DNA of 64,000 nt from Termitidicoccus mucosus (GTDB lineage Bacteria > Verrucomicrobiota > Verrucomicrobiia > Opitutales > Opitutaceae): assembly GCF_038725785.1 (NCBI RefSeq), contig NZ_CP109796.1, positions 1,798,001 through 1,862,000 of the forward strand, written 5' to 3'. Positions 8,945 through 26,352 of the stretch are shown here, in pieces (position 1 is the stretch's first letter; every line of letters starts with the position of its first letter). The translations under genes and the position numbers were made by a program. Under the pieces are notes generated by a model. The model worked only from the letters and a program-made list of their open reading frames with translations. It was not told where the DNA came from and did not search any database.

Positions 8945-10264
8945 TCACTCGCCGTAGGCGTCGCGCCTGGTTTTCCACAGGAGCGCAAAGACCGCAGCAC
9001 CGGCCAGCCCGACCAGGCAGAGCGCGCCGAAGGCGTGGGACCAACTGTATTTCTCCACCAGCAGGCCCAGCCCCCAGCCCGAAACGATGGTGCTCGCGTA
9101 GGCGAACAGCGACGTGAAGCCGATCGCCGTCGCCGCCGCGCGGCGGGTGACGATGTTGGCCGTGATGACCCCGCCCAGCGCCTGCGGGCCGTAGATGCAA
9201 AAACCCGCCGCCATCAGCAGCAAGGACATGGCCGGCGGCGGCAGCGGCAGCAGCCAGAAAAGCAGCATGAACACCACGGCCAGCACCATGCACAGCACGC
9301 ACACCCGCGCGGCGCGCCCGCCAAAAAAACGGTCGGTCACCCAGCCCGCCAGCAGCATCCCGGCGATGCCCGCGATTTCGAAGCCGGCGGTCATCCAGGT
9401 GGATGACTTGATGGAGATGCCATAGTGTTCGCCGAGGAAAGTCGGCCCCCAGTCGAGGACGGCGTAGCGCATCACATAGACAAAAAACTGCCCCGCGCCG
9501 ATGATCCAGACCACCGGATTGAGAAAGACGTTTTCGCGGATGAACCGCTTGAACGCGGCGGTGTCGTTTTCATTTTCCGCCGCCTCCGCCTTTTTGCCGG
9601 CGCCGGGCAATTCGGGCAGCCCCACCGACGACGGCGTGTCGCGAAGCGCGAACCAGAGGGCCCCGGCCCCGGCGATGGCGATGGCGGCGGGCAGCCAGAA
9701 GCACCAGCGCCAGCCGAACGCGACGACGTAGCCGCAGAGGACGACGACAAAGCCGGCGCCGATGGAATGCGAGGCGTTCCACACGGACATCTTGGTCGCG
9801 AGTTCGGCGGGCGGCACCCAATAGGTGATGAGGCGCGCGCAGGGCGGGAAGCCCATGCCTTGGAACCAGCCGTTGACCATCCAGATGACACCGAGGCAGA
9901 CGACGAGCACGCCGAGGAATTTCTCGCCGGTGCCGGCGCCTGCGATGGCCGCGGCGACGGCCGGGCCGAAGGCAAACGCGACACTGCACAGCGAGGCGAG
10001 CAGCAGCCCGGCGACCATGAAGCGGCGCGAGTTCACGCGGTCGCCGATGATGCCGTTGAGGAATTTCGACACGCCGTAGATGAGGCCGTGCGCGGTGAGA
10101 AACACGCCGAGTTGCGCCTTGCTGATGCCAAACTCGGCCTGGAGGCCGGGCATGGCGACGCTGAGGTTTTTGCGGACAAAATAAAACAGCGAGTAGCCGA
10201 TCATCGTGGCAATGATGGTGCGCCATTGCCAGTAGCGGAAACTTTTTGCGGTCGCGGGGGACAT
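8945..10264 (-). CDS. MFS transporter, organophosphate:phosphate antiporter (GlpT/UhpT/PgtP) family
   Basis: A 439-residue inner-membrane protein with about 12 hydrophobic helices. It carries the two OPA-family arginine motifs, FYFVRKNLSVAMP (helix 1) and VYVMRYAVLDWGP (helix 7), which bind the phosphate of the substrate, plus GDRVNSRR in the first cytoplasmic loop. It should exchange an organophosphate for inorganic phosphate; the actual substrate (glycerol phosphate, hexose phosphate or phosphoglycerate) is open. It is the last gene of the minus-strand run starting at 16671, 18 bp after the aldolase gene. A second member of the family is at 19176. Confidence 0.9.
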   Translation of the reverse strand: MSPATAKSFRYWQWRTIIATMIGYSLFYFVRKNLSVAMPGLQAEFGISKAQLGVFLTAHGLIYGVSKFLNGIIGDRVNSRRFMVAGLLLASLCSVAFAFGPAVAAAIAGAGTGEKFLGVLVVCLGVIWMVNGWFQGMGFPPCARLITYWVPPAELATKMSVWNASHSIGAGFVVVLCGYVVAFGWRWCFWLPAAIAIAGAGALWFALRDTPSSVGLPELPGAGKKAEAAENENDTAAFKRFIRENVFLNPVVWIIGAGQFFVYVMRYAVLDWGPTFLGEHYGISIKSSTWMTAGFEIAGIAGMLLAGWVTDRFFGGRAARVCVLCMVLAVVFMLLFWLLPLPPPAMSLLLMAAGFCIYGPQALGGVITANIVTRRAAATAIGFTSLFAYASTIVSGWGLGLLVEKYSWSHAFGALCLVGLAGAAVFALLWKTRRDAYGE

Positions 10265-10282
10265 GGTGTTTTCGGGCGGAAA

Positions 10283-10990
10283 CTATATTGGTCCGGGGAG
10301 CGGGGTATCGAGGCGGGCGTCCGCGCCCTGCGAGGACACCCAGTCGGCGTGAAAATCGCGCACGGCCAGGCCGATCGGGGCGAAGTCGCACGCGGAATGG
10401 AGGATGTCGGGTGTCATCGTGACGGCGGCGGCACCGGCGGCCAGCGCGTCCGTCGTCTGCGTGATGTTCTTGAAGCTGGCCGCAACGATTTTCGCCGGCG
10501 ACCCCGCCCGCGCCAGCACGCCGGAGACCTCGGCGATGATCGCGCGGAAATCAATCCCCATCTGCTCCATCCGATTGCAATACGGCGCGAGGTAGCGGGC
10601 GCCGGCGGCGGCGGCGAGATACGCCTGCATCCGCGTGTATATTCCCGTGGCGGTGACATTCACGCCCCCGCCCGCCAGCGTTTTTATCGCCTCCAGCCCC
10701 GGCTCCGTGACCGGGATTTTTATATAAACCCGCCCGTCAACCCCGGCCAGCACCGCCCGCGCCTCCGCCAGCATCTCCTCCGTCGTGGCGCCGAGCGTCT
10801 GGATGTGCAGGGATTTGTTTTCCCCGATGATCTCCCGGATTTTCCGAAAATGCGGGTAGAAATCCAGTCGGCCCTCCTTTTTTATAATCGTCGGGTTCGA
10901 GGTCACGCCCGCCAGCGCGAACCGGCGGTCGCATTTTTCAATCTCGGCGATGTTCGCCGAGTCGAGGATTATTTCCAATGGTGTTTTCAT
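10283..10990 (-). CDS. Transaldolase-like / fructose-6-phosphate aldolase (TalC/FSA) family
   Basis: A 235-residue single-domain TIM-barrel protein of the small transaldolase/FSA type. Visible family blocks are AGVTSNPTIIKKEG near the N-terminus, VYIKIPVTEPG holding the Schiff-base lysine (about residue 88), a NVTATGIYT block and KIVAASFKN. Members cleave fructose-6-phosphate to dihydroxyacetone and glyceraldehyde-3-phosphate or act on similar ketose phosphates. Only 4 bp separate it from the upstream SDR gene, so the two are almost certainly co-transcribed and may work in sequence: polyol phosphate oxidised to ketose phosphate, then aldol cleavage. Confidence 0.87.
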   Translation of the reverse strand: MKTPLEIILDSANIAEIEKCDRRFALAGVTSNPTIIKKEGRLDFYPHFRKIREIIGENKSLHIQTLGATTEEMLAEARAVLAGVDGRVYIKIPVTEPGLEAIKTLAGGGVNVTATGIYTRMQAYLAAAAGARYLAPYCNRMEQMGIDFRAIIAEVSGVLARAGSPAKIVAASFKNITQTTDALAAGAAAVTMTPDILHSACDFAPIGLAVRDFHADWVSSQGADARLDTPLPGPI

Positions 10991-10994
10991 GGGC

Positions 10995-12125
10995 CTAATT
11001 CAGCATGACCTGGCCGCCGGTGACGGGCAGGGCCTGGCCGGTTTCATATTGTTGCTCGACCAGATAATAAACCGCGCGGAGGACATCGGCGGCGCCGCAC
11101 CCGCGGCCCATCGGCGTCTTCGCCTCGTAAAACGCCCGCACCTCGGCGGCGGTCCTGGCGCCGGGCACCTTGCCGGCGCGGAGGTATTGCGCGAAAAGCC
11201 CGCGCTCCGGCTCGGACCAGAGCGGGCCGTCGAAAAAGTTTCCGGGGCAGACCGCGTTCACCTTGATTCCCCACTCGACAAGCTCCTTCGCGAAACTTTG
11301 CACCAGCCCGACGCCGCCGAATTTGCTCCCGGCGTAGGCGCCGTTTTTGCCGGAGCCCTCCAGCCCGGACTTGGAATTTATTTGTATAATGTCGGACGTC
11401 CAGGCGGCGGCGCCGGGGGCGGCGGCACCGGCTGCGATATGCTGCGTTTTCATCATGCCGCCCGCGTGTTTCGCGACGACGGCGAAACCGACATAGTTGA
11501 CCTCGGCGACAAGGCGCAGCGCCGCGATGTCCTGCCCGAGGATGCCGCCGGCGCCGCGCACGATGCCCGCGTTGCTCACGCAAAGGTCGAGCCCTCCGCT
11601 GCGCAGCGCGATGTCCTCGCACAGGCGCGCGACGGATTCCTCGTCGGCCACGTCCGCGCCGTGAGCGAACGCGACCGGGGCGGCGGCGCCTCCGCCGCAC
11701 CCGGCGTTGAACTGCTCCGCGAGGCGGGCGGCGCCGGCTGCGTTGGTGTCGGCGAGGTGGACGATGGCGCCGCCGGCGGCGAGGCCGCGCGCGATTTCCG
11801 CACCGAGGCCCTGCGCGGCGCCGGTGACGACGGCGACGCGGTTTTTCATGGTGGTGGCGCGGTTTGCCGGGAAAATTTCGCTTGTTATCCTGTATGAAAA
11901 ACAGCGCCCGCCGCGCCTGAGCGTGGCGGCGCCGGGGATGCCGCCCGGAAGCCCGCCCGCGATTCCCCGCGCGATGGCGGCAATATCATCGGGCGGGGGC
12001 GCGGAAACATCAATCACGGGCGCGCCCGGCGCGCCGTCGGGCGTGTATGAAACGGCGGCGGGGCGGCGGGTCCGCCCGAGGACGACTCCCCGCAGGATTT
12101 GCGCAAGTGTTACTTCTGTTGTCAT
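10995..12125 (-). CDS. SDR oxidoreductase, sorbitol-6-phosphate dehydrogenase (SrlD)-like, with N-terminal extension
   Basis: The SDR domain begins at an internal ATG (11849) with VAVVTGAAQGLG (NAD-binding), then SNAG, the catalytic Ser in INSKSGLEG and the YAGSK active site. The blocks KFGGVGL, PMGRGC and the ending TGQALPVTGGQVM closely follow E. coli SrlD, so a sugar- or polyol-phosphate dehydrogenase making a ketose phosphate is likely. Upstream of that ATG the frame stays open for about 92 residues (from 12125, or 12143) and codon use looks coding, so a longer protein of 376 residues is annotated; the short form would be 284. No clear ribosome site decides between them. The extension has no motif I recognise. 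Confidence 0.78.
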   Translation of the reverse strand: MTTEVTLAQILRGVVLGRTRRPAAVSYTPDGAPGAPVIDVSAPPPDDIAAIARGIAGGLPGGIPGAATLRRGGRCFSYRITSEIFPANRATTMKNRVAVVTGAAQGLGAEIARGLAAGGAIVHLADTNAAGAARLAEQFNAGCGGGAAAPVAFAHGADVADEESVARLCEDIALRSGGLDLCVSNAGIVRGAGGILGQDIAALRLVAEVNYVGFAVVAKHAGGMMKTQHIAAGAAAPGAAAWTSDIIQINSKSGLEGSGKNGAYAGSKFGGVGLVQSFAKELVEWGIKVNAVCPGNFFDGPLWSEPERGLFAQYLRAGKVPGARTAAEVRAFYEAKTPMGRGCGAADVLRAVYYLVEQQYETGQALPVTGGQVMLN

Positions 12126-12235
12126 TGGGAAATGATATAACATGGGCGCGGCGGCGGCACCGCGCGTTTAGGTTTAAGGCTCCGATGGCGTGCGGAGCTT
12201 AACCATTATATGCACGGCGTTGGTTTTGCCCTTGG

Positions 12236-13177
12236 TCAGATTCCCTTGACGTGCCAGAGGCCGCCGTCCTGCCCGCAGACCATGAGCAATTTGTCGCCGT
12301 GGAAGTCGGCGTCCTCCGGCTCAAGCGTCAGGTCTTTGCTGAAGTCCATGATTTTTTCGATTTTTCTTTTGCCCAGGTCGACCACGATGAGGGCGCGGTC
12401 CGCCGGGTCTTTTTTGGCGCCGGCGGGTTTCGGGCAGCCGACGGGCATGTAGAGCCGGTCGCCGCGGATCACGCCGCCCTGGCTGAGGTGGCGGAAACTG
12501 ATGGTGAACCGGTCGAGGAAGTCCTTTTCGGTGAAGGTGACGTCGCCCTCGGAAAGGGCGGGAAGGCGGACCTTGGTGATGAGGTAGTCGCTTTCGTCCG
12601 CGCGGTTTTTGGCATCGTGGGTGATGGCGGCGAAGTAGAGGAATTTGCCGTCCTTGTCCACATACCAGTCGAAAGAGTAGTCGGCGGTGAGGGGTTCCAT
12701 GCTTTTGCCGTCGCGGCGGACTTTCAGGGTTTGTATCAACTTCGCGCCGGCGGCGCTGACGCTCTGGACGAAGCAACGGCGCTGGCCGTAGCACTCGGAG
12801 ACGTAGAGGGCGGGGTAGGCGCTGTTGCCCTCGGGGAACTCGACGCCGAAGTTGGCGCAGTTGGCGTGGTTTTCCGGCGCGGCGGTGTCGAGCAGGTAGT
12901 CGTTTATAAACTCCTTCGTTTTCAAATTATACATGCGGACGATGCCGGTGTTGTTGAAAAGGAAGGCGGTGTCCTTGTGGATGGCCATGCCCTGCTGGGC
13001 CTCCTTCTTGTAGGTTCCCACGAAGGGGTGCTCCAGGGTCGGGGCGGCGGCGCCGGTGCCGGCGGCGGTGGCGGTGGCGAGGGCCCCGGTGGCGGCGAGG
13101 ACGGCGAGGACGAGGGCGCGGGCCGCGGAAAACGCGGCGGCACCGCGCGGGTGTGTCTTGGTTTTGTTCGGTTTCAT
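12236..13177 (-). CDS. Secreted protein of unknown function, possibly beta-propeller
   Basis: A 313-residue protein. After a long, Ala-rich signal region (about 45 residues) it has repeated short beta-type segments such as GMAIHKDTAFLFNNTGIVRMY, DWYVDKDGKFLYFAAI and ALIVVDLGKRKIEKIMDF that look like propeller blades. Two cysteine-bearing spots are seen (NHANCANFG, SECYGQRRC). No catalytic motif was recognised. It lies in the middle of the glycerol-phosphate gene run, 47 bp after the araM-like gene, so it may bind or sense an extracellular substrate of that pathway; this is inference only. Confidence 0.75.
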   Translation of the reverse strand: MKPNKTKTHPRGAAAFSAARALVLAVLAATGALATATAAGTGAAAPTLEHPFVGTYKKEAQQGMAIHKDTAFLFNNTGIVRMYNLKTKEFINDYLLDTAAPENHANCANFGVEFPEGNSAYPALYVSECYGQRRCFVQSVSAAGAKLIQTLKVRRDGKSMEPLTADYSFDWYVDKDGKFLYFAAITHDAKNRADESDYLITKVRLPALSEGDVTFTEKDFLDRFTISFRHLSQGGVIRGDRLYMPVGCPKPAGAKKDPADRALIVVDLGKRKIEKIMDFSKDLTLEPEDADFHGDKLLMVCGQDGGLWHVKGI

Positions 13178-13224
13178 GTCGGGAATAAATCAGCCGGTTG
13201 GTTTATTGGGTTCGTTTTGCCGTG

Positions 13225-14565
13225 TTATTTTATCTCCCAGCGCCCGCCGGGGCCGAAGAGGGCGGCGACGCAGGCGTCGAAGAGCCCGGCGCGCTGGGCG
13301 AGGTCGATGGCGGTGAAACGGTTGCGGAAATAGGGGGCCTTGAGCAGGGTCTCGCGCAGGCGCGCGCGGGAGATGCTGATGTGCTCCGGCTCCGTCGGCA
13401 CGCCGGCGGCGGCGAGGCGGCGTTGCGCCTCCGCGACAGGGATGAGTTGCTTTTCGAGGCGCGTTTTCAGGCCGGGCCAGGCGCGTTTTATCAATTCCAA
13501 TTGCGCGGCCACCGCCTGCCTGCCGACGTATTTGGCGCGGCTTTCCGAGAGGATGCGTCCGATGGAGCCGCCACCGTAGAGGGCGTGTATTGTTTTTTCC
13601 ATGCCGGCGAACTCCGGCCACGCGGCGGTGGCGGCGGCGACGTCGAGCGCGGTCAGGTCGATTTTCAGCAGCTCCTCGTAAAACGCGAGGATGGTTATTG
13701 TGCCGATGGCGACCTGGAAGCCGTGCGAGACGCCGCGGCCGTTGTGGCGGTGGTGCTCCATGTCCCAGATGTGACTTATATAATGCTCGGCGCCGGAGGC
13801 GGGGCGGCTGCTTTTCGCGTATTGCATGGCGAAGCCGCCGAGCATCAGGCCCTCGACGAGACGCCCGAGCGCGACGGGATCGCCGGCGCGGACACCGGCG
13901 GGATCGGAGAGGGCGAGAGGGAGGCCGCCTTGCACGAGGTCCCAGGCGACGGGGTTGAGCGGGTCGGCGCCGGCGGCGTCGGCCACGAGCCAGTCGGCGC
14001 CGCCGGTGATTTTGGCGAAGAGGTCGGCGTAGCCGGCGGCGGTCATCTCGGCCGGGGCGCGGGCGAATATGTCAATGTCGGCGAGGGCGGCGCGGGGCGC
14101 GGGGCAGGTCATGGTCTGTTTCGCGCCGTCCTTGGTGATGGATGCGCCGAAGGAGGTGTAGCCGTCCATCGAGGCGGCGGTGCCGACGACCATGTAGGGG
14201 CGGCCTGCGAGATGCGCGGCGAGCTTGCAAAGGTCGTTCACGGTCCCGGAGCCGACGGCGACGGGCACAGCGGCGGTGGCGCGCAGGCGCGCCAAGATGG
14301 TTTCGACGTGGCAATACTCGGCGTGGAGATCGCGAGCGTCGAGCACGAGCGGCTCGTCCTGCGGCACGCCGTCGCCGCGCAGGAGCACGGATGCGGCGCC
14401 GCCGACGGCGGTGTGGGTGTTGGTGTCGGCGACGATGATGGCGCGCGCGTCGGCGCCGAACTGGGCGCGGAAGAGCGACGCGATTTCGCAGAGCGTGCCG
14501 GGACCGATCAGCAGCGCCTTCGTGTCGGTGGCGGCTTTTAGCGCGGTTTCGACTCGCGAGGTCAT
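13225..14565 (-). CDS. egsA: sn-glycerol-1-phosphate dehydrogenase, AraM/EgsA family
   Basis: A 446-residue cytoplasmic enzyme of the dehydroquinate synthase-like/iron alcohol dehydrogenase fold. The family blocks GSGTVNDLCK (NAD binding, about 103), GTAASMDGYTS (about 128) and a late metal-ligand region AEHYISHIWDMEHH followed by GRGVSHGFQVA are present. It should interconvert dihydroxyacetone phosphate and sn-glycerol-1-phosphate, the archaeal-type enantiomer. Its ATG overlaps the stop of the GpsA-like gene by four bases (14562-14565), so the two dehydrogenases are translationally coupled. In this context a catabolic direction (G1P to DHAP) is more likely than lipid synthesis. Confidence 0.88.
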   Translation of the reverse strand: MTSRVETALKAATDTKALLIGPGTLCEIASLFRAQFGADARAIIVADTNTHTAVGGAASVLLRGDGVPQDEPLVLDARDLHAEYCHVETILARLRATAAVPVAVGSGTVNDLCKLAAHLAGRPYMVVGTAASMDGYTSFGASITKDGAKQTMTCPAPRAALADIDIFARAPAEMTAAGYADLFAKITGGADWLVADAAGADPLNPVAWDLVQGGLPLALSDPAGVRAGDPVALGRLVEGLMLGGFAMQYAKSSRPASGAEHYISHIWDMEHHRHNGRGVSHGFQVAIGTITILAFYEELLKIDLTALDVAAATAAWPEFAGMEKTIHALYGGGSIGRILSESRAKYVGRQAVAAQLELIKRAWPGLKTRLEKQLIPVAEAQRRLAAAGVPTEPEHISISRARLRETLLKAPYFRNRFTAIDLAQRAGLFDACVAALFGPGGRWEIK

Positions 14566-15710
14566 GGCATCTCGGTGACGAAGCTGTCCCAGGGCAGGTC
14601 GGCGGTCTTGTTGTCGAGGAGGATCTCGCCGAGGCGGGCCATGAGCGGGAATTCGGCGAGATCAATCTCGCCGCGGCCGGCCATGCCGCGCAGGGCCGCC
14701 GCCATGCGCTGGATGATGACGTTGGACTCGAGGGTGACGCCGGAGAGTTCGCGCAGCGCCTCGTCGAGGGTGAGGCCGATGCCGAGCAGGAGGCCAAGCA
14801 GGCGCGTGCGCCCGCTGAAGGCCGTGACGTAAAGGTCGCCGATGCCGACGTGAAGCGAGCGGTCGCTGCCGGCGAGGAGTTTCAGCAGTTTCTGCATTTC
14901 ACGGCAGGACTGGCCGAATACGCCGGCCTGCGAGTTGTAGTGCAGCGGCACCTTGCTCTTGTTGATCTTGTCGCTCACGCCGACTTGCGCGTAACTGCGG
15001 ACGCGCTCAAGGGCGTCCTCAATGCCGTTGCCGTTGACCTTTTCGTTGACGCCGACGGCCACGGCGACGCCGAGCGCGTAGGCGTTTTTCAACGCGACGG
15101 CGCACTCGACGCCGGCAACATCGTCGGTGACCTCGATGTTGTAATAATCGGTTTCCATGATGGCCTTGAGGCGGCGGAGAACGCCGGGGTCTTCGCCGCA
15201 GAAGGAAACGACGGTCGGGTCTTTATAAACGAGTTCGTAGCTGGTGCAGGGGCCGCCGACGGCGTTGAGGCAGAGTTTTTTGGGAGCCAGCTTGCGTTTC
15301 CAATATTCAAGATAGGTGATGAGCACGCCTTTTTCGTCGGCGATGAGTCCCTTGGTGACGGAGAGCACGGGCAGGGTTTCGGGGACGAGCGGGAGGACTT
15401 TTTCGGCAAACCAGTCCACGCCGAAGCTGCTGACGCCGCCGATGAGCAGGTCGGCGCCCTCAAGGGCGCGTTCGAGGTCCTCGATGTCGTAATATTCGAC
15501 GCCCCCGGGGAAGGGGCGGGAGAACTTCGGCAGCTTGCCGGTCTTGCGGTAGCCCTCGATGATGTCGCGGTCGAGGTGCGTGCCGACGATGCGGACGATG
15601 TGGCCGTTTTCCCTCGCGGGAAAGGCGAGGGCGGAACCCATCATGCCGGCGCCGACGATCGTGACGGTGCGTTGTCTGCCCGAATTGCCATTGGTGATGC
15701 TGGTGCTCAT
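14562..15710 (-). CDS. NAD(P)-dependent glycerol-3-phosphate dehydrogenase family (GpsA-like)
   Basis: A 382-residue protein starting with a Rossmann fold (TIVGAGMMGSALAFPAREN, about residues 16-34). The motifs SVTKGL, NAVGGPCTSYEL and the substrate-region ALKNAYALGVAVAVG match the GpsA fold; the glycine motif GAGMMG and the longer C-terminus mark a divergent subfamily. It should interconvert sn-glycerol-3-phosphate and DHAP. The pairing with a G1P dehydrogenase by a 4-base overlap is notable. Upstream, 55 bp away, is the glycerophosphodiesterase gene, whose product could supply its substrate. A role in lipid synthesis cannot be excluded, but a second housekeeping GpsA would be expected elsewhere. 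Confidence 0.85.
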   Translation of the reverse strand: MSTSITNGNSGRQRTVTIVGAGMMGSALAFPARENGHIVRIVGTHLDRDIIEGYRKTGKLPKFSRPFPGGVEYYDIEDLERALEGADLLIGGVSSFGVDWFAEKVLPLVPETLPVLSVTKGLIADEKGVLITYLEYWKRKLAPKKLCLNAVGGPCTSYELVYKDPTVVSFCGEDPGVLRRLKAIMETDYYNIEVTDDVAGVECAVALKNAYALGVAVAVGVNEKVNGNGIEDALERVRSYAQVGVSDKINKSKVPLHYNSQAGVFGQSCREMQKLLKLLAGSDRSLHVGIGDLYVTAFSGRTRLLGLLLGIGLTLDEALRELSGVTLESNVIIQRMAAALRGMAGRGEIDLAEFPLMARLGEILLDNKTADLPWDSFVTEMP

Positions 15711-15765
15711 GTTATGCTTGTGCTGTTTGGGAAAGGTTTTTGTTTTTCTGTTTTTTGGAATTTCG

Positions 15766-16671
15766 CTATTTCCCGGAGCGTTTTCTGGAAAGGCCGGCGA
15801 AATCGGCGGGATAGTCCGTCTCGATGATGTCGGGGGTGCGGGAAAGCTCTTTTTTATAGGCCTCGATGCGGGCCTCGTCCGGCTTGACCTTGTCGGCGGT
15901 GGGGCCGACGGCGATCATGCACATGACGCCGTGGCCGTGCAGCAGGTCATGGACCGCCTGCTGCTCCGGGTCCATGGTGTATCGGACATAGGCCATGATG
16001 CGGTTCCACGGGATGCCGGAATCGCGATACGCCTCGTATTGCGCCCTGTCGCCGATTTCGCAGCAAAACATGACATTGTCGTTGCGCCGGTAATAAAACA
16101 AACATTCCTCCAGCGAGCGAACGGAGAGGATGATATTATGATATTTCGCCCACTTCCCCTTCAGGTTGTCGGAATAAACCTGCCAGGGCACGCCCTTGTT
16201 GTCGAAATTGAACACGGTTTTGTCCGCGCCCCACTCCAGCACCTCGTCGAGCGTGGGGATTTTGTAGGACGTCACGTTTTTCTGCCGGTCCTTCAGGTAA
16301 AACTCCTGCAACTCCGCGTAAGTGTAATCGGCAACCTTGCCCTTGCCCGTGGTGGTGCGGTTGATCGTGGCGTCGTGCATGAGCACGAGCACGCCGTCCT
16401 TGGTCAGGCGCGGGTCGATCTCGAAGAACGACGGCATGAGCGAGAGCGTCTTTTCGCACGACGCGACGCAGTTTTCGGGATAGCCCGCCATCATGCCGCC
16501 GCGGTGTCCGCTGATGATGATGTCCTTGTCCGGCGAGTAATGAAAATACTCCTGCAAGTCGGCCATGCTTCGAATATTGACTGTATGCAGGCGCGGCGCG
16601 GCGGCGGCGGGGACCGCGAACGCCAGCAAGGCGATGAGCCCGGCGGGGCGGAGGGGATTTATTTTCATCAT
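15766..16671 (-). CDS. Exported glycerophosphodiester phosphodiesterase (GDPD)
   Basis: A 301-residue protein starting at the first of two adjacent ATGs (16671/16668), preceded by an AAGG element; the frame runs further up, but this start gives the signal peptide (MMKINPLRPAGLIALLAFAVPAAAA). Catalytic GDPD motifs are intact: SGHRGG, YPEN, EIDPR, DGVLVLMHD. It should hydrolyse glycerophosphodiesters to glycerol phosphate and an alcohol in the periplasm. It is the first gene of the minus-strand run and is divergent from the DeoR-type regulator. It belongs to a different GDPD subgroup from the GlpQ at 22171, so the two may have different substrate range or stereochemistry. Confidence 0.9.
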   Translation of the reverse strand: MMKINPLRPAGLIALLAFAVPAAAAPRLHTVNIRSMADLQEYFHYSPDKDIIISGHRGGMMAGYPENCVASCEKTLSLMPSFFEIDPRLTKDGVLVLMHDATINRTTTGKGKVADYTYAELQEFYLKDRQKNVTSYKIPTLDEVLEWGADKTVFNFDNKGVPWQVYSDNLKGKWAKYHNIILSVRSLEECLFYYRRNDNVMFCCEIGDRAQYEAYRDSGIPWNRIMAYVRYTMDPEQQAVHDLLHGHGVMCMIAVGPTADKVKPDEARIEAYKKELSRTPDIIETDYPADFAGLSRKRSGK

Positions 16672-16933
16672 GAGGAACCTTGTTGAGCGCACTGGTTTGT
16701 CGGTTGCTGGAAGTATGGCCGGTCGGCGCAGTCGTGAGAGGGGAATGGAAGTCGCGCCCGTTGCAGGAATGATCAATCTCCTCACGCGAGAAGTGACCGC
16801 TCAAGCAATTTCAGGCCGTTTTCATCCGACGAAATGCATTTTTTTCAAATAAAATGATTGTTCGCGCGCATTTCTGGTTGTTTTTTGAGCGTTTTTCCAA
16901 GCAGCAAAAAAACCATGTGAAGCCCCCCGTGCC
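16672..16933. promoter_or_regulatory. Divergent promoter region between GDPD and DeoR-type regulator genes
   Basis: This 262-bp gap must contain the promoters of both arms of the glycerol-phosphate locus. Its AT-rich part (about 16830-16920) includes several A- and T-tracts and the sequence TGTTCGCGCGCA near 16859, whose TGTTCG half resembles a GlpR half-site. No complete operator could be defined by eye. Autoregulation plus control of the minus-strand genes by the adjacent regulator is the expected arrangement. Confidence 0.45.
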
Positions 16934-17698
16934 ATGAGGAATCGACGCGAAGAAGAGATATTGAAGTATCTGGAAACCCATGAATTTTTCTCGACCGAGC
17001 AGGCGATGAAACATTTCGGCGCCAGCGCGGCGACGATCCGGCGCGCGTTCGTCAGGCTGGCGAAAAGCAATCTGGCGAGACGGGTTCACGGCGGCCTCAA
17101 CCGTCTGCCGCAAGGCGGGAGCGACGCCCTCCCATTCGTCATGCGGGGACGCTGGCTTGAGAACGAGAAGACGCGCCTGGCCGCGCGCGCGATGGAGTTT
17201 GTCCCGAAAGGCGGCGCGGTGTTCATTCACGGCGGCTCGACCACGCTGGGACTGGCGCATCACATAAAAAGCGGCACCATCATCACCGACTCGATCAACG
17301 TCTGCGGGGTGCTGATGCAGCGGTTCCCCTCCGGCGGCGGCCCGGATGTCATTCTGCCGGGCGGCACGCTCGATTTGAAGTCGGACGCGCTCGTCGGCCC
17401 GCGGGCCGAGGCCGCCCTGCGGGAATATCGCGCCGACGCGGCGTTTTTCTCCTCGCGCGGCATGGACGAGGAAGGCGTGCTCGACACCACGGACACCCAG
17501 GTGGCGACCGCCCGCCTGATGATTCGCAACGCCGCCCTTCGCGTCATGATCGCCGACCATAGCAAATTCCGAAAGTTCGGCCTGACGCGGATGGTGTCCT
17601 GGGAGCAGGTTAACGTCCTGGTGACGAGCGACCACGCCGAAAACCGCCCCTGGTTCGAGATGATAAAAAAACACGGCGTGAAAGTGGTGCTCGCCTGA
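16934..17698 (+). CDS. DeoR/GlpR family transcriptional regulator
   Basis: A 254-residue regulator: N-terminal winged helix (REEEILKYLETHEFFSTEQAM, then SAATIRRAFVRL as recognition helix, residues about 5-50), then a DeoR sensor domain with FIHGGSTTLGLAHHI and the late ADHSKF block. DeoR sensors bind sugar or polyol phosphates; E. coli GlpR of this family responds to glycerol-3-phosphate. Placement between glycerophosphodiesterase/dehydrogenase genes and the GlpT/GlpQ genes makes a glycerol-phosphate-responsive repressor the best guess. The start at 16934 gives the usual length. Confidence 0.87.
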   Translation: MRNRREEEILKYLETHEFFSTEQAMKHFGASAATIRRAFVRLAKSNLARRVHGGLNRLPQGGSDALPFVMRGRWLENEKTRLAARAMEFVPKGGAVFIHGGSTTLGLAHHIKSGTIITDSINVCGVLMQRFPSGGGPDVILPGGTLDLKSDALVGPRAEAALREYRADAAFFSSRGMDEEGVLDTTDTQVATARLMIRNAALRVMIADHSKFRKFGLTRMVSWEQVNVLVTSDHAENRPWFEMIKKHGVKVVLA

Positions 17699-18005
17699 AC
17701 GCCGGCGCGACCGCCATCGGCGGGCAACCGGTTCCGCCCGGGCATTTCACCCGCAACTTATTATAAGATTTTACCAACAAGCATATTGCAGTATTTTGCA
17801 TTTATATTTCAAATATAAAGTGTTCTTTTTTTGGCGTTATACAGCCCCGGGCGAATAATTATTTAAAATTCTCCATCGACTAGGCTGGCCCCCCGCCCTT
17901 TTTTAACAGGCGCATGAGCACATGATGGAAATCCGCGGGCAACACGCCGCGGACGCCGCCAGACAACGCATTCGATTTATTTTATATATCCGATGAACTA
18001 ATCTC
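17699..18005. other. AT-rich gene-free region with a 9+1+9 palindrome
   Basis: This 307-bp gap holds no credible coding frame. It is much more AT-rich than its surroundings and contains a perfect palindrome at 17801-17819 (TTTATATTT, C, AAATATAAA), followed by further AT-rich sequence to about 17875. It probably carries the promoter for the EEP-glpT-GH109-glpQ run; the palindrome is a candidate operator. No terminator for the regulator gene was seen. Confidence 0.5.
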
Positions 18006-19082
18006 ATGCAAAGCCCAGCTCCTGCCATGATCCCATATTCCCCAAACCTCCGACGCGCCCGACCCCGGGCTGCCCGCGCCGCCGGTTTTATCCGTCGCGC
18101 CCGCCTCGCGGTTGTGTTTGTCGGCGCGCTTTGTGCGGCGGGGTCTGGCTTCGCGGAACCGGTGCGCGTGCTCACGTTCAACATTCTCAGTTCCTATCTC
18201 GGCGCGGACAAGGCAGGCGTGGAGGAAACCCCGCGCGTCAAACGCTGGGAGAAACGCGCGCCGCTCGTCATCGAGGTGATGCGCGACCATCCCGACGGCA
18301 GCGGCCCCTACGACTTTATCGGCACGCAGGAAACAAGCATCGACCGGCGGCGCGCCGAGGCCGACCAGACGCGGCGGCTCGCGGACGCGATGCAGGGATA
18401 CGGTTCGCTTTATGAGCCATGCACCGGCCCGGCGCTGCGGCGTTTTTCGCTAAGCAACATGATCTTCTGGCGCAAGGACCGCTGGGAACTGGACGACGGC
18501 GACCACGGCACATTCTGGCTCTCAAGCACGCCGGACATCCCCGGCTCAAGCGACTGGAACGCGGACGGACAGCCCGAGAGCAAGCGTTGCGTCACCTACG
18601 GCCTCTTCCACGAAACCGGCCCCAAGGGCCGCACGGGACGACGCGTGTATTTCTACAACACGCACCTTTACGTGTTCTCCGAAGCCTCGCGCGAAAAGTC
18701 GGCGGCGCTCATCATGGAGCGCATCGCAAACCGCCGCGACAAACGCGCCGCGGTGCTCCTGACCGGCGACATGAACGCGCGCCAGTGGTCCGCCCCTGTG
18801 CGCCACTTCCGCGGCGAGACCGTCACGCTCGCCGGACGGACGCGCGCCGCTCCGTTCGCATTGCGCGACACCTACGCCGCGGCGCACCCCGGACAATCCG
18901 GCCTCGTCGCCGGCACCCGCGCCTCGCCCCCGCTTTTCGCGGACAAAATAGACTACATCTTCGCCAGCGACGATTTCATCACCGCCGGCGCCGGGCGCAT
19001 AGAAACCCATCACGGCGACCTTTGGCCGAGCGACCATTACCCCTACGAAACCGTGCTGGAATTCGCCGGAGACAAAAAATAA
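18006..19082 (+). CDS. Secreted endonuclease/exonuclease/phosphatase (EEP)-fold protein
   Basis: A 358-residue protein with a basic N-region and hydrophobic segment ending SGFAEP, so exported (a start at 18027 is also possible). All EEP/DNase I-fold active-site blocks are visible: TFNILS (Asn), FIGTQET (Glu), TGDMNA (Asp-Asn), DKIDYIFA (Asp) and PSDHYP (Asp-His). The family cuts phosphodiesters and phosphomonoesters, including nucleic acids, sphingomyelin and phosphoinositides. The position next to glpT and glpQ suggests a role in releasing phosphoesters, perhaps from phospholipid head groups, but a nuclease cannot be excluded. Confidence 0.82.
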   Translation: MQSPAPAMIPYSPNLRRARPRAARAAGFIRRARLAVVFVGALCAAGSGFAEPVRVLTFNILSSYLGADKAGVEETPRVKRWEKRAPLVIEVMRDHPDGSGPYDFIGTQETSIDRRRAEADQTRRLADAMQGYGSLYEPCTGPALRRFSLSNMIFWRKDRWELDDGDHGTFWLSSTPDIPGSSDWNADGQPESKRCVTYGLFHETGPKGRTGRRVYFYNTHLYVFSEASREKSAALIMERIANRRDKRAAVLLTGDMNARQWSAPVRHFRGETVTLAGRTRAAPFALRDTYAAAHPGQSGLVAGTRASPPLFADKIDYIFASDDFITAGAGRIETHHGDLWPSDHYPYETVLEFAGDKK

Positions 19083-19175
19083 CCGCCAAGGCATGACGCG
19101 GGAAAATCTCCGCATCCCATTTTTTCACCATCCAGCCCCTGCCCTTTCGCAACGAAACCACCGAAAACCAGAAAA

Positions 19176-20561
19176 ATGTCCCACCGCAACGCTCCCGCGT
19201 CCGAGTCCCGCCACGGATTGTTTTCCTTTCTCGCCCCCGCGCCGCACATCGCTCCGCTGCCGCCCGAAAAGATCGACCCGGCATACAAACGCCTGCGCTG
19301 GCAGGTGTTCGCCGGCATCTTCATCGGCTACGCCGCGTTTTATCTCGTGCGCAACAACCTCGCGCTCGCCATGCCCGACATTTTGAAAGAGTATCCGGGG
19401 CGCTTCACCAAGGCGCAGCTCGGCACCGGCCTCACCGCCGTCATCGTCGCCTACGGCCTGTCGAAATTCATCATGGGTTCCGTCTCCGACCGCAGCAACC
19501 CGCGCCGCTTCCTTCCGCTCGGCCTGCTGCTCTCGGCGGGCGTCATCGCCGTTTTCGGCAGCGTGAAGGCCGTGTATGCGTCGCTCGCTGTGATTGTCGC
19601 GCTCTCCGCGCTCAATGGCTGGGTCAACGGCATGGGCTGGCCGCCCTGCGGCAAGACGATGGTCCACTGGTACAGCTCGCGAGAGCGCGGCAGGGTCGTC
19701 TCCTTTTGGAACGTCGCGCATAACGTCGGCGGAATGCTTATCACCGGGATCGGCACTGCCGGCATGTTTCTTTTCCACGACTGGGGTGCGAAGTTTTATC
19801 TGAACGCCATTGTTGCCGCCGGCATCGCCGTGCTCGCCTGGTTTCTCATGCGCGACACCCCGCAAAGTTGCGGCCTGCCGCCGATCGAGGTGTATAAAAA
19901 CGACTACCCGCCCGCCTATTCAGCCCGCAACGAACGCGTGCTCTCCTTCCGCGAGATCTTTTTTCAAAACGTGTTCAACAACCCGGCGCTCTGGGCCATC
20001 GCGATCGCCAACGCCTTTGTGTATTTTGTCCGCTACGGCGTCGTGAGCTGGGTGCCCGTTTACCTGGAGACTGCGAAGCATCTTTCCGTCAAGGAATCCA
20101 GCATCGCGTGGTCGCTCTTCGAGTTCGCCGCCATCCCCGGCACGCTCCTGTGCGGCTGGGTGTCGGACAGGCTTTTCAAGGGCCGCCGCGCGCCCGCCAC
20201 CATATTGTTCATGGCGCTCACGCTCGTCGGCATCCTGCTGTATTGGATCAATATAAACGGCCCCGTGTGGCTTGATTATGTCGCGCTCTTCACCGCCGGC
20301 TTTTTCATCTACGGTCCGGTCATGCTCATCGGCCTGCACGCGCTCGAACTCGTCCCGAAAAAAGCCGCGGGCACCGCCGCCGGCTTCACCGGTTTATTCG
20401 GCAACACCATCGGCGGCGGCGCCGCCGGCGCCGGCGTCGGCTGGATAGCCGACCATTTTCAATGGCACGGCGTTTTCCTGACCATGACCGTCTGCTGCCT
20501 GCTCACCATGCTCTTCAGCGCCATGTCCCTCGGCGGCCGCCCGAAAGACACCGGCGCGTGA
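19176..20561 (+). CDS. glpT: Glycerol-3-phosphate:phosphate antiporter, GlpT-like
   Basis: A 461-residue, 12-helix MFS protein of the OPA family. The two substrate-binding arginines appear in FYLVRNNLALAMP and FVYFVRYGVVSWVP, matching the Arg45 and Arg269 contexts of E. coli GlpT, with GWPPCGKTMVHWYSSRERG and SFWNVAHNVGG between them. It should import glycerol-3-phosphate in exchange for phosphate. The next-but-one gene is glpQ, the classical partner that makes the substrate in the periplasm. It is clearly different from the OPA protein at 8945, so the locus has two such carriers. Confidence 0.9.
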   Translation: MSHRNAPASESRHGLFSFLAPAPHIAPLPPEKIDPAYKRLRWQVFAGIFIGYAAFYLVRNNLALAMPDILKEYPGRFTKAQLGTGLTAVIVAYGLSKFIMGSVSDRSNPRRFLPLGLLLSAGVIAVFGSVKAVYASLAVIVALSALNGWVNGMGWPPCGKTMVHWYSSRERGRVVSFWNVAHNVGGMLITGIGTAGMFLFHDWGAKFYLNAIVAAGIAVLAWFLMRDTPQSCGLPPIEVYKNDYPPAYSARNERVLSFREIFFQNVFNNPALWAIAIANAFVYFVRYGVVSWVPVYLETAKHLSVKESSIAWSLFEFAAIPGTLLCGWVSDRLFKGRRAPATILFMALTLVGILLYWININGPVWLDYVALFTAGFFIYGPVMLIGLHALELVPKKAAGTAAGFTGLFGNTIGGGAAGAGVGWIADHFQWHGVFLTMTVCCLLTMLFSAMSLGGRPKDTGA

Positions 20562-20666
20562 GCGCGCGGGCATTGTTTTTCACCGTGGATATGTGGTGAT
20601 TCCCAGGCATGTAATATGGGTTCCTCGTTATTTCGGGTGGCTGAGAAATCAGAAATTATATTTATT

Positions 20667-22118
20667 ATGAAATATACAACCCAGGCCGCATTGCCCCCGC
20701 CCCGCCCTGCCCCCGCCGCCGGCTCCCGTCGCGACTTCCTCAAAAGCGCCGCCCTCGGCGCCGCCGCGCTCGCCGGCGGCCTGCCCCTCGCCGCCGCCAG
20801 CGACGGTCCGCTCTCCGCCACCCGCCCGCGCAAGCCCGGCCTCAAACCCGTCCACGACCTGACCACTCCGCCTCTGGAAAAGGTCCGCGTCGGCGTCATC
20901 GGTCTCGGCCGCGGAGGCAGCCTCGTGCGCGACATGGCCGGCCTCGATTTCGTCGAGATCGCCGCGTTGTGCGACCTCCGCCAGGACCGCGTCGAGCGCG
21001 CCCTCGCCCATATCCGCGCCGGGTCCTCCGCGCAGCCGAGACTCTATGTCGGCGACGAGCGCGCATGGGAAAAACTCGTCGATCAGGACAACCTCGATGT
21101 CGTTTATGTTGCGACACCCTGGGAGTGGCATGTGCCGATGGCCGTCCGCGCGATGGAGCGCGGCAGGCACGCCTTCGTCGAGGTCTCCGCCGCCGTGACG
21201 GTGGATGAGTGCTGGGAGTTGGTTGATACCTCCGAGCGCACGCAGCGCCATTGCGTGATTTTGGAAAACTGCTGCTATGGCCAGAGCGAGTTGTTCGTGC
21301 TCAACCTCGTCCGCCAGGGCGTCTTTGGCGAATTGAAGCATGCCGAGTGCGCTTATATACACGAGTTGCGCGACATGCTCTTCAACCTCGACTCCGAAGG
21401 CAACTGGCGGCGCGCGTATCATAAAAAACTCGATGGCAACCTCTATCCCACGCACGGCCTCGGCCCTGTCGCCCGCTACCTCGGCATCGGGCGCGGCGAT
21501 CAGTTCAAGAGCATTGTCTCCGTCAGCTCCGGGGAGCACGGTCTCTCCAAATGGTTGCGCGAGAAAAACCCCAACGCCGGCCGCCACGCCGGCGAACGCT
21601 ACCGCTGCGGCGACATCAACACCTCCATTATCAAGACCGAGCTGGGTCGCACCATCATGGTGCAGCACGACGTCGTCAGCCCGCGCCCCTACAGCCGCAT
21701 CAACGCCCTCAGCGGCACCGATGCCACCTTCTTCGACTATCCCGCCCGCCTCGCGCTCGACGAGCCCGCGCGCCTCGATCTCGGTCTGAAGTCGAAAAAC
21801 AGCCATGCCTGGCTCGGCAACGAGGACATGGCGAAAATGCGCGAGCGCTTCACGCACCCGCTGGTCCGCGAGTTGTGGGCGAAGGCGAAGGGCGCGGGCC
21901 ACGGCGGCATGGATTACCTGATGAATCACCGCCTGCTCGACTGCGTCCGCCGCGGCGCAACGCCCGACCTCACGGTCTATGACGCCGCCGCGTGGAGCAG
22001 CATCCTGGAGCTTTCGGTGCGCTCGGTCGGGCAGGACGGCGCGCCGGTGACCATCCCCGATTTCACGCGCGGCGCGTGGAAAACCCTTCGCCCCGCCGCC
22101 GACCCGCTTGGCGCGTAG
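20667..22118 (+). CDS. Gfo/Idh/MocA-family protein, GH109-like alpha-N-acetylgalactosaminidase, Tat-exported
   Basis: A 483-residue protein from the ATG at 20667 (the frame opens at 20616). It begins with a Tat signal (SRRDFLKSAALGAAALAGG). Then comes a Rossmann domain (VRVGVIGLGRGG), ATPWEWHVPMA, and the GH109 hallmarks FVEVSAAVTVDECW, ENCCYG and NLYPTHGLGPVARYL. GH109 enzymes use tightly bound NAD to remove alpha-linked GalNAc, and export with the cofactor through Tat fits. Activity could differ in this large family. It sits between glpT and glpQ, an unexpected place that suggests shared regulation or a GalNAc-bearing phosphoglycan substrate. Confidence 0.85.
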   Translation: MKYTTQAALPPPRPAPAAGSRRDFLKSAALGAAALAGGLPLAAASDGPLSATRPRKPGLKPVHDLTTPPLEKVRVGVIGLGRGGSLVRDMAGLDFVEIAALCDLRQDRVERALAHIRAGSSAQPRLYVGDERAWEKLVDQDNLDVVYVATPWEWHVPMAVRAMERGRHAFVEVSAAVTVDECWELVDTSERTQRHCVILENCCYGQSELFVLNLVRQGVFGELKHAECAYIHELRDMLFNLDSEGNWRRAYHKKLDGNLYPTHGLGPVARYLGIGRGDQFKSIVSVSSGEHGLSKWLREKNPNAGRHAGERYRCGDINTSIIKTELGRTIMVQHDVVSPRPYSRINALSGTDATFFDYPARLALDEPARLDLGLKSKNSHAWLGNEDMAKMRERFTHPLVRELWAKAKGAGHGGMDYLMNHRLLDCVRRGATPDLTVYDAAAWSSILELSVRSVGQDGAPVTIPDFTRGAWKTLRPAADPLGA

Positions 22119-22170
22119 GACGCGGAACTCCACGCGGCCGGATTCTCAATTCAGTCAATCAACCCAAGTC

Positions 22171-23157
22171 ATGAAAAACACAATACTGACAACATTGGTA
22201 ATGCTCGCGGCCGCCTTCGCGGCGGAAGCGACCGTGGAGGGCGCGGAGCGGCCCGTGGTCATCGCGCACCGCGGCGCCAGCGGCTACGTCGTCGAGCACA
22301 CGCTCCCGGCCAAGGCGATGGCCCACGCGATGGGCGCCGATTATATAGAACAGGATGTCGTGCTCAGCAAGGACGGCGTCCTCGTCGTGCTGCACGACAT
22401 TTATCTGGAGGCCGTCACCGACGTCGCCGCGCGCTTCCCGGAACGCCGGCACGAGGACGGGCGCTTTTACGCGCTCGACTTCACGCTGGCCGAGTTGAAA
22501 CAACTGCAATTGAACGAGCGGCTCAACACCAAGACCGGCCGGCAGGCGCTCCCCGGACGCTTTCCCGGCGGCGCGGGCTTGTTTCATATTTCCACCTTCG
22601 AGGAGGAACTCCGTTTTATACAAGGCTTGAACAAAAGCACCGGGCGCGAGGCCGGCGTGTATGTGGAAATAAAATCCCCCGACTGGCACCGCAAGCAAGG
22701 CGCGGATGTCAGCCGCGCGACCGTGGACATGCTGCGGCGTTACGGCTACGCCAAAAAAACCGACAAGTGCTGGATCCAGTGCTTCGAGTGGGATGAGGTG
22801 CGGCGCGTGCGCGAGGAACTCGGCTGGGAGGGCCGGCTGCTGTTGTTGATGAGCAAGAACCCCAAGCCCGGCATGCTGGAGGACGTGGCCAAAGTCGCCG
22901 ACGGCATCGGTCCGTCGATCAAGCAGATCGCGACCGGCAAGACCCCCGCCGAACGCAAACTCACGCCCCTTGTCCGCCAGGCCCGCGCGCTCGGCCTCGC
23001 GGTTCATCCCTACACCGTGCGCCGCGACGAACTCCCCGCCTGGGCGGCGTCCGCGGACGAACTTCACGAGGTGATTTTCCGCGATGCAAAGGCGGACGGC
23101 GTGTTCACCGACTTCCCCGATCTCACGCGGCAATGGATCGACCGGCATTCAAACTGA
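22171..23157 (+). CDS. glpQ: Glycerophosphodiester phosphodiesterase GlpQ, exported
   Basis: A 328-residue protein; the start at 22171 gives a signal peptide (MKNTILTTLVMLAAAFAAEA). GDPD catalytic motifs are intact: IAHRGASG, VVEHTLPA, DYIEQDVVLSKDG, LVVLHD. The segment with FHISTFEEEL and YVEIKSP is typical of the E. coli periplasmic GlpQ type rather than the shorter GDPD at 15766. It should release glycerol-3-phosphate from deacylated phospholipids for uptake by GlpT. It is 52 bp after the GH109-like gene and ends just before a 122-bp repeat element. Confidence 0.92.
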   Translation: MKNTILTTLVMLAAAFAAEATVEGAERPVVIAHRGASGYVVEHTLPAKAMAHAMGADYIEQDVVLSKDGVLVVLHDIYLEAVTDVAARFPERRHEDGRFYALDFTLAELKQLQLNERLNTKTGRQALPGRFPGGAGLFHISTFEEELRFIQGLNKSTGREAGVYVEIKSPDWHRKQGADVSRATVDMLRRYGYAKKTDKCWIQCFEWDEVRRVREELGWEGRLLLLMSKNPKPGMLEDVAKVADGIGPSIKQIATGKTPAERKLTPLVRQARALGLAVHPYTVRRDELPAWAASADELHEVIFRDAKADGVFTDFPDLTRQWIDRHSN

Positions 23158-25470: not shown

Positions 25471-25609
25471 TGATACGACACGGAGGCCGTCCATCCAGCA
25501 AAAGCGGCATTTCGTTTCATAATTGGCATAAAATGCCCCATTACTTGACGGACCGGCGCCGGATGTTCACCCGGGGAGAGAGGCGCGGCGCAGCCAGGGC
25601 ATGCCGCCC

Positions 25610-26278
25610 TCAGATATGGCCGAACACCTCGCTGGCGTCGAAACGCACTTTCTTGAGTTTCGCGTATTTGTCCCCCTCGCCGCGATAACCGGCGGCGCAG
25701 GCGACCAGCGTGGCGAGCCCTTTTTCCTTGAGCCCGAGAATCTCGTCGTATTTCGGAGCCTCGATCCCGCCCAGCGGGCAGGTGTCGATGCCGAGCAACG
25801 CCGCCGCCGTTGTGAACTGGCCGAGCGCGATAAAGATCTGGTTGGCTTGGATGATGTCGAGCGCGCCGTTCTTCGCCGTCTGGGTGACAAAGCCCTCCAG
25901 CATTTGCTGGAATCCGGCGAGCGCGGATTTATCCACGCCGCGCACCTCGGCCATGCGGTCGATGTTCTTGCGCACGTAGTCCACGCCGATGTTTTTGCGC
26001 AGGGTAAACACCACCAGGTGCGAGCAGTCGGCGACTTGCGACTGGCCGTGCGACACCGGCACCAGCCTGGCGCGCACCGCCGGATCGGTGACGACGATGA
26101 ACTTCCACGGTTGCAGGCCCATCGACGAGGGCGTGAGCCGCAGCACCTCCTCCAGCGTCGCCCACGTGTCGGCGGGGATTTTTTTCGACGCGTCGAATTG
26201 TTTCGTGGCGTATCTCCAGTTGAGCGCGGCGAGCAGTTGCCCGCTGCTGATCGGTTCGAGTTTGTCTGTGGTTGTCAT
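25610..26278 (-). CDS. NAD(P)H-dependent nitroreductase family oxidoreductase (NfsB-like)
   Basis: A 222-residue FMN-dependent nitroreductase. The start at 26278 (MTTTDKLEPISS) is preferred over the frame opening at 26356. FMN-binding features are RYATKQFDASKKI near the N-terminus, LTPSSMGLQPWKFIVV (about 45-60), and a late ALLGIDTCPLGGIE plus GYRGEGDKYAKLKKVRF. Members reduce nitroaromatics, quinones or dihydropteridines in the cytoplasm. The gene follows the ene-reductase gene by 74 bp on the same strand, so they may form a redox or detoxification pair. Confidence 0.88.
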   Translation of the reverse strand: MTTTDKLEPISSGQLLAALNWRYATKQFDASKKIPADTWATLEEVLRLTPSSMGLQPWKFIVVTDPAVRARLVPVSHGQSQVADCSHLVVFTLRKNIGVDYVRKNIDRMAEVRGVDKSALAGFQQMLEGFVTQTAKNGALDIIQANQIFIALGQFTTAAALLGIDTCPLGGIEAPKYDEILGLKEKGLATLVACAAGYRGEGDKYAKLKKVRFDASEVFGHI

Positions 26279-26352
26279 GGTAAGAAACTTCTCCGGCGGG
26301 CCGCGCCCGTGTCCCCGCGGCAATGCAATGGACGGCGGGGCACGGACGCGCC

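Follow-up and report, generated by a model that had tools for sequence, protein, structure and literature searches.

Closest described systems and layout of the locus

The AraM dehydrogenase of Bacillus subtilis, the glpTQ genes of Escherichia coli, the glycerol phosphate dehydrogenase of Archaeoglobus fulgidus and the glycerol phosphate uptake of Phaeobacter are the described systems closest to the locus reported here. It lies in a window of 64,000 nucleotides (C1:1798001-1862000) of the 7.92 Mb Termitidicoccus mucosus genome (two contigs, assembly 96% complete), where the gene for an AraM/EgsA-type sn-glycerol-1-phosphate (G1P) dehydrogenase homolog (13225-14565, minus strand; EgsA-like below) overlaps that for a GpsA-like sn-glycerol-3-phosphate (G3P) dehydrogenase (14562-15710, minus strand). 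Judged from its genes, the locus probably serves glycerophosphodiester utilisation, with import and oxidation of both glycerol phosphate enantiomers derived from envelope phosphodiesters. A search of the open-access literature (abstract starts) returned no description of a locus of this kind.

The Ni2+-dependent AraM of B. subtilis (PDB 9h4x) resembles the EgsA-like protein in fold and Asp/His positions, with its C-terminal extension weakly matched; it belongs to an arabinose operon, whereas the present gene lies among genes for glycerophosphodiester hydrolysis and import in a genome in which PcrB was not found. The occurrence of EgsA/AraM in some Verrucomicrobia was noted in 2016 (PMC5059525). 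As in E. coli glpTQ, a GlpT-like carrier and a GlpQ-like glycerophosphodiester phosphodiesterase (GDPD) are encoded together on the plus strand, but a GH109-like gene lies between them, a gene for an endonuclease/exonuclease/phosphatase-fold (EEP) hydrolase precedes them and the two-dehydrogenase operon adjoins. The nearest solved relative of the GpsA-like protein is PDB 1TXG, which we take to be the A. fulgidus G3P dehydrogenase; here, unlike there, the gene stands in a GDPD/DeoR locus and a canonical GpsA is encoded separately. Phaeobacter uses both enantiomers as carbon source through GpxB and UgpB, which act with ABC transporters where the present locus has OPA carriers, and the main-text sections of that paper leave the G1P-oxidising enzyme unnamed (PMC12718374). 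A locus of the present kind could supply such an enzyme.

The minus strand encodes, in order of transcription, GDPD1, the GpsA-like and EgsA-like proteins, a protein of unknown family, a short-chain dehydrogenase (SDR), a fructose-6-phosphate-aldolase (FSA)-type aldolase and an OPA carrier. The plus strand encodes a DeoR regulator, an EEP hydrolase, a GlpT-like carrier, a GH109-like protein, the GlpQ-like GDPD2 and a metallophosphoesterase. An earlier note on this DNA had described the two overlapping dehydrogenases, two different GDPDs, two OPA-family carriers and a divergent DeoR/GlpR-type regulator, and its coordinates and gene content were borne out by Pfam and NCBIfam. The four-base overlap (ATGA) was found as described; the GDPDs differed in their closest PDB entries (3mz2 with 245 bits for GDPD1; 1ydy, which we take to be E. 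coli GlpQ, with 318 bits for GDPD2), both with a hydrophobic N-terminus in translation; the carriers matched the TIGR00881 and GlpT models, and the regulator matched DeoRC and HTH_DeoR. The FSA-type aldolase, the SDR, the family-less protein, the EEP hydrolase and the GH109-like oxidoreductase were additional to that description. Its placing of GlpT and GlpQ in one run with the dehydrogenases was not supported as worded, as they lie on the opposite strand.

The two dehydrogenases

The EgsA-like protein matched Pfam Fe-ADH_2 with 112.5 bits (cut-off 28). Against the NCBIfam G1P dehydrogenase model NF002022 it scored 140.1 bits, under the cut-off of 413; it is thus a homolog rather than a member of that equivalog, so that homology is what points to G1P as its substrate. 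B. subtilis AraM (9h4x) was matched with 133 bits by phmmer and 245 bits by profile. The AlphaFold 2 (AF2) model had a predicted local distance difference test (pLDDT) score of 94.5, and its alignment with VIA-align placed B. subtilis AraM on top (Z 42.3, 26% identity over 375 residues). The structural-genomics entry 3ce9, titled glycerol dehydrogenase, was second (Z 38.1), and lower ranks were taken by archaeal G1P dehydrogenases (Z 33.7-35.0) and glycerol dehydrogenase 1jq5 (32.1), with others lower. By sequence, 3ce9 ranked second with phmmer and fifth in the profile search, and its title alone decides nothing on naming. Plain glycerol dehydrogenase (GldA) was rejected as a name because AraM and the archaeal G1P dehydrogenases outranked the characterised GldAs in both sequence and fold. 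Residues D181, H261, H265 and H281, which we take to be metal ligands, were invariant in 24/24 aligned sequences (the window's own included), and the Asp/His positions aligned with the same residues in 9h4x. The Fe-ADH_2 domain, a predicted fold nearest to G1P dehydrogenases and the Asp/His residues place the protein in the AraM/EgsA family. The genome contained 3 AraM-type genes, and the Fe-ADH_2 profile added three weaker matches (25.7-32.1 bits).

The GpsA-like protein contained both NAD_Gly3P_dh domains, the N-terminal one with 46.9 bits (cut-off 23.1) and the C-terminal one with 53.5 bits (cut-off 25), and fell under every NCBIfam GpsA cut-off (best 92.8 bits against 257). Entry 1TXG was matched with 135 bits and the runner-up with 51, so the protein was designated a G3P dehydrogenase of the A. 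fulgidus type. Residues K120, K208, N209, D292, T296 and R301, presumably the catalytic lysine and phosphate-binding residues of the family, were invariant in 24/24 GpsA-like rows, the window copy included. The canonical GpsA was located separately at C1:6615504 (174.7 bits).

On the minus strand the junction reads GAG ATG CCA TGA in the GpsA-like frame and ATG ACC in the EgsA-like frame, with the EgsA-like start overlapping the GpsA-like stop. The overlap behind the coupling of the two dehydrogenases proposed earlier is real in the window but is not shared by the congener L030, where two genes lie in between. The order there is DeoR (divergent), GH88-like, GDPD1, GpsA-like, FAD oxidoreductase, a further GDPD and AraM-type, and the GpsA-like gene ends with TAA, 47 bases short of the next predicted start. 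The intervening FAD oxidoreductase and GDPD rule out the overlap as a conserved coupling. An FAD oxidoreductase also precedes the AraM-type gene in the nearest named relative, an Opitutaceae metagenome-assembled genome (MAG; L001, JAITDF010000315.1). In a genome of the same family (G004), ~17 kb separate the GpsA-like and AraM-type genes, and arrays of related proteins are encoded in that interval. These tandem arrays (L022:10955-17883 and L063:2272-6987) comprise five related proteins, one of which was Pfam-scanned and gave a weak metallo-beta-lactamase match, and three related proteins, of which one was scanned and was calcineurin-like phosphoesterase.

Neighbourhood conservation

All 3 AraM-type genes of the T. 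mucosus genome have a GDPD gene at a distance of no more than 2 kb. As the 7.92 Mb genome has 6 GDPD matches, a random point has a chance of ~0.9% of lying within 6 kb of one, and the association is more than chance. Among 14 Opitutaceae AraM-type loci (the partial locus L032, a 36% match, was left out), family matches came from profiles built on window and locus proteins, with representatives only checked by Pfam, and counts were lower bounds because the contigs of L001 and L028-L031 are cut. Within 6 kb of the AraM-type gene, GDPD and OPA carrier were each present in at least 11 loci, a SorC regulator in at least 9, GlpD-like and HAD phosphatase each in at least 5 and GpsA-like in at least 2 (the window and L030). 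The Pfam check of representative neighbours returned Sugar-bind (SorC type), GDPD, DAO+DAO_C and Hydrolase_6. As controls, 20 stretches totalling 260,378 bases were used, one taken from this genome and the others from different families; none had a GDPD, OPA, SorC, DeoR, GlpD or HAD match, and one FGGY and one weak FAD-oxidoreductase match were seen. The conserved core in Opitutaceae is an AraM-type gene with a GDPD and an OPA carrier.

The accompanying G3P dehydrogenase varied. It was GpsA-like in the window. GlpD/GlpO-like genes (DAO+DAO_C) accompanied the AraM-type gene elsewhere, with Pfam identifying them in L020 and L023 and the built profile in L024-L026; GlpA-like genes (DAO+BFD) did so in L119 (Pfam) and L138 (built profile). 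The pairing of AraM-type genes with three types of predicted G3P dehydrogenase is the best argument for loci serving both enantiomers. The placing of GlpT and GlpQ beside the regulator did not extend to L030 and L063, the two relatives whose sequence beside the regulator is long enough to tell; the genes called there were not GlpT or GlpQ homologs.

Across the phylum, the AraM-type gene was found in 88/387 genomes (E 1e-30). The search gave 95 rows, of which nine Opitutaceae had been fetched earlier and 60 of the other 86 were fetched (L097-L156), with six weak relatives (L151-L156) counted apart from the remaining 54 loci. HAD phosphatase was near 10/54 and GlpD-like near 3/54 of these loci outside Opitutaceae, and one of the 54 from the same class but another family (L106) had OPA, GDPD, SorC, GlpD-like and HAD all present. 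When the neighbours of AraM-type genes in further families of the phylum were scanned with Pfam, most were housekeeping genes. Among GpsA-like carriers, 42/47 genomes also had the AraM-type gene, compared with 88/387 overall (Fisher 5e-26, uncorrected for ancestry). The search of genomes for the same gene pair, suggested earlier, showed co-occurrence but seldom proximity: the pair lay within 6 kb in 2/14 Opitutaceae loci and in 0/20 GpsA-like loci fetched elsewhere in the phylum. A DeoR gene was near 6 and a GDPD near 5 of the latter 20.

Outside the phylum, an FGGY kinase gene adjoins the AraM-type gene in 4/5 loci (L002, L004, L214 and L215), an actinobacterial MAG included, and L003, with one flank only, had no FGGY kinase in view. 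The ribulokinase cut-off was passed by the kinases of L002 and L214 and not by those of L004 and L215; L002 also has an araD-type aldolase, and L215 a GDPD next to its kinase. This FGGY context recalls the B. subtilis ara operon. L002 is a Roseiflexaceae MAG, and a close relative (E 1e-60) was present in 3/251 genomes drawn from its phylum. The GpsA-like gene, too, has ribulokinase-type genes in its vicinity, at a distance of ~4 kb in L187 and of ~10 kb in L063.

Proposed function and alternative explanations

After its release from cell-envelope molecules, glycerol phosphate would be imported by the GlpT-like carrier and the other OPA carrier. Cytoplasmic G1P would then be oxidised by the AraM-type enzyme to dihydroxyacetone phosphate (DHAP), and the GpsA-like enzyme, with a GlpD-like gene of another locus, would oxidise G3P to the same product. 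Triose or polyol products would probably be handled by the FSA-type aldolase and the SDR, and as long as no inducer is present the DeoR protein may keep the operon repressed. That both enantiomers are imported and oxidised, as the earlier note proposed, is the best fit to the gene content, and relatives repeat the theme with other G3P dehydrogenases. The genome encodes its canonical GpsA elsewhere and gave no PcrB match, so that the locus is not required for either of the known biosynthetic roles. More tentatively, and at somewhat less than even chances, the locus may be dedicated to scavenging G1P and G3P, perhaps those of lipoteichoic acid and phosphatidylglycerol, with a catabolic AraM-type enzyme that is translationally coupled, in this genome, to the Archaeoglobus-type G3P dehydrogenase for joint oxidation or for redox-neutral inversion of G1P to G3P.

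Archaeal ether lipids and phosphatidylglycerol had been suggested earlier as the source. Archaeal lipids are one option, but a bacterial source suffices, because the head group of phosphatidylglycerol, the precursor of lipoteichoic acid, is G1P, and lipoteichoic acid itself is poly-sn-glycerol-1-phosphate (PMC7086022). The same paper states that wall teichoic acid is built of G3P and lipoteichoic acid of G1P, and that intact lipoteichoic acid is not cleaved by the G3P-specific GlpQ of B. subtilis (PMC7086022), which may account for the two kinds of GDPD and the two dehydrogenases. Phosphatidylglycerol head groups and teichoic acids would be the likeliest sources, with archaeal lipids possible.

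Several observations weigh against utilisation of both enantiomers. With NAD as acceptor, the oxidation of glycerol phosphate runs thermodynamically uphill and has to be pulled, and the characterised AraM/EgsA enzymes are described as biosynthetic. The gene overlap is a local feature and is not conserved, and no GpsA-like match was found in a genome of the same genus (G001, 72% complete). No GDPD lies within 6 kb in 3/14 Opitutaceae loci (L022, L024 and L025), and one control stretch only is from Opitutaceae. Outside the family, GDPD was near 9/54 and OPA near 5/54 AraM-type loci, and 0/6 of the weaker relatives had any of these families. The two dehydrogenase genes are on different contigs in 39/42 genomes that have both, and the co-occurrence statistic ignores shared ancestry. 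The relatives in other phyla and two GpsA-like loci are near ribulokinase-type genes.

This last context also favours a different substrate. The AraM-type enzyme may act on another polyol or sugar phosphate, such as pentitol phosphate, in a sugar-alcohol-phosphate pathway in which the GDPD only frees the polyol. FGGY kinases beside the outside-phylum AraM-type genes, ribulokinase-type genes near GpsA-like genes (L187 and L063), an SDR nearest to sorbitol-6-phosphate dehydrogenase in the same operon as an FSA over its cut-off, and the G1P dehydrogenase model score below cut-off are consistent with it. It is nevertheless rather unlikely, as the fold and metal site of the AraM-type protein are nearest to those of G1P dehydrogenase, the Opitutaceae loci carry GDPD and GlpD-like genes, and the kinase of L215 is itself adjoined by a GDPD. 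The araM gene of B. subtilis, a reported G1P dehydrogenase, is also in the ara operon (PMC5059525), so that such a context is compatible with G1P. A reductive role, in which the AraM-type enzyme would make G1P for archaeal-type or mixed-chirality membrane lipids, is highly improbable for this locus, even though G1P synthesis for lipids is the known role of AraM and EgsA. PcrB is not strictly needed for such a role, as bacterial PlsY/PlsC accept both enantiomers (PMC13400652), and PcrB-profile matches occur in 67/387 genomes of the phylum (27 over the curated cut-off), 7 of which are AraM-type-positive (G278 and G409 over the cut-off). The genome itself gave no PcrB match at E 0.001, whereas 7/14 control genomes matched, 5 of them above the cut-off. 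Among the matches listed for the phylum, ~35-60 of 226 positions are covered with 19-30 bits, and these are presumably other TIM barrels. The gene also sits among hydrolases, importers and a regulator, and three paralogs in a single genome fit catabolism better. Archaeal-type lipid synthesis was rejected as the principal explanation, PcrB not being found in a genome assembled to 96% completeness; the result across the phylum is weaker. The missing match is evidence against a lipid role and not proof, since G1P made here would need a different acceptor and PlsY/PlsC could take it.

A redox-neutral inversion, in which the AraM-type enzyme oxidises G1P to DHAP and the GpsA-like enzyme reduces DHAP to G3P with NAD(P)H, has a similarly small chance. 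The gene overlap points to coupled synthesis, the reactions balance each other thermodynamically, and both dehydrogenases occur in 42/47 GpsA-like genomes. On the other side stand the rarity of close pairs (2/14, with ~17 kb in G004 and 0/20 elsewhere) and the preference of the A. fulgidus homolog for NADP, reported in PMC5059525.

Utilisation of both enantiomers, if true, bears on G1P catabolism in general. Besides phosphatidylglycerol head groups and lipoteichoic acid, archaeal lipids contain G1P. Bacterial growth on G1P has been shown (PMC12718374), and in the literature searched no bacterial G1P-oxidising enzyme was assigned to catabolism. Loci with AraM-type, GDPD, importer and G3P dehydrogenase genes would be named candidates for it. 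It would also be a warning not to take egsA/araM in a bacterial genome as a sign of archaeal-type lipids, because the gene is common in the phylum, while PcrB-profile matches are short and weak.

Phosphodiesterases, carriers, regulator and accessory genes

GDPD1 (15766-16785, minus strand, with a likely start at 16671) and the GlpQ-like GDPD2 (22108-23157, plus strand, codon-model start 22201) are presumably both exported, given the hydrophobic N-terminus of each, GDPD2 presumably to the periplasm. The GlpT-like sn-glycerol-3-phosphate carrier (19176-20561, plus strand) passed TIGR00881 (421 bits, cut-off 408) and fell below the GlpT model NF008433 (602 bits, cut-off 748). A carrier and phosphodiesterase of the glpTQ type are thus both present, with the carrier under the GlpT equivalog cut-offs. 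The other carrier (8945-10264, minus strand) is an OPA-family MFS protein (MFS_1; TIGR00881 321 bits, cut-off 408), distantly related to GlpT, UhpC and PgtP, and is likely to import glycerol phosphate or a related organophosphate; its homologs adjoin AraM-type paralogs in Opitutaceae.

The DeoR/GlpR-type regulator (16934-17698, plus strand) is divergent from the GDPD1-GpsA-EgsA operon, and DeoR genes stand beside GDPD and GpsA-like genes also in L030, L063, L186-L188 and L195. The intergenic stretch between GDPD1 and the regulator (16672-16933) is the presumed control region, in which a repeat search showed short repeats only and no recognisable DeoR operator.

The FSA-type aldolase (10283-10990, minus strand) passed NF009299 (259.7 bits, cut-off 214) and has Gln64, Lys91, Thr115 and Tyr137, which we take to be functional residues, in FSA-like motifs. 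The SDR (10995-12143, minus strand) has sorbitol-6-phosphate dehydrogenase as its nearest curated model, below its cut-off, and the S, Y and K motifs, presumably functional, are present. Its domain is recognisable only from ~residue 98, so the true start is probably at 11852-12017. The two enzymes could join glycerol-derived dihydroxyacetone and glyceraldehyde-3-phosphate to fructose-6-phosphate without ATP. The protein at 12236-13177 (minus strand) had no Pfam or NCBIfam match, and its AF2 model (mean pLDDT 50) was too weak to use. It has a hydrophobic N-terminus and is presumably exported; homologs adjoin AraM-type genes in L001 and, as two copies, in L022, and L030 encodes a related protein of 673 residues that matches GH88. 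The EEP hydrolase (18006-19082, plus strand) also has a hydrophobic N-terminus, and the GH109-like Gfo/Idh/MocA protein is encoded at 20616-22118 (plus strand). The calcineurin-like metallophosphoesterase (23431-25368, plus strand) probably belongs to the same phosphoester module as its next gene.

Surrounding region

Before the window, at distances of ~13 and ~36 kb, are two of the six GDPD genes. They belong to a long same-strand run (C1:1756000-1795999; L216 and L217) that also encodes two EEP hydrolases, two metallophosphoesterases, an OPA carrier and a relative of the protein at 12236-13177. Compared with their counterparts in the window, the EEP hydrolases are 41% and 47% identical, the metallophosphoesterases 58% and 51%, the OPA carrier 32% and the relative of the 12236-13177 protein 42%. 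The metallophosphoesterase paralogs are found 11-19 kb ahead of the window start among GDPD, EEP and OPA genes. By its gene content, the run looks like duplicated phosphoester-degradation modules. The first 8.3 kb of the window contain rhamnosidase and esterase-like genes, and the island suggests a phosphate-bearing glycopolymer or lipid as source, for example a glycosylated teichoic acid. A Pfam scan found no family for 25601-26830 and 1700-2743. Further along, the minus strand of the window carries an open reading frame of 2145 codons at 52438-58875.

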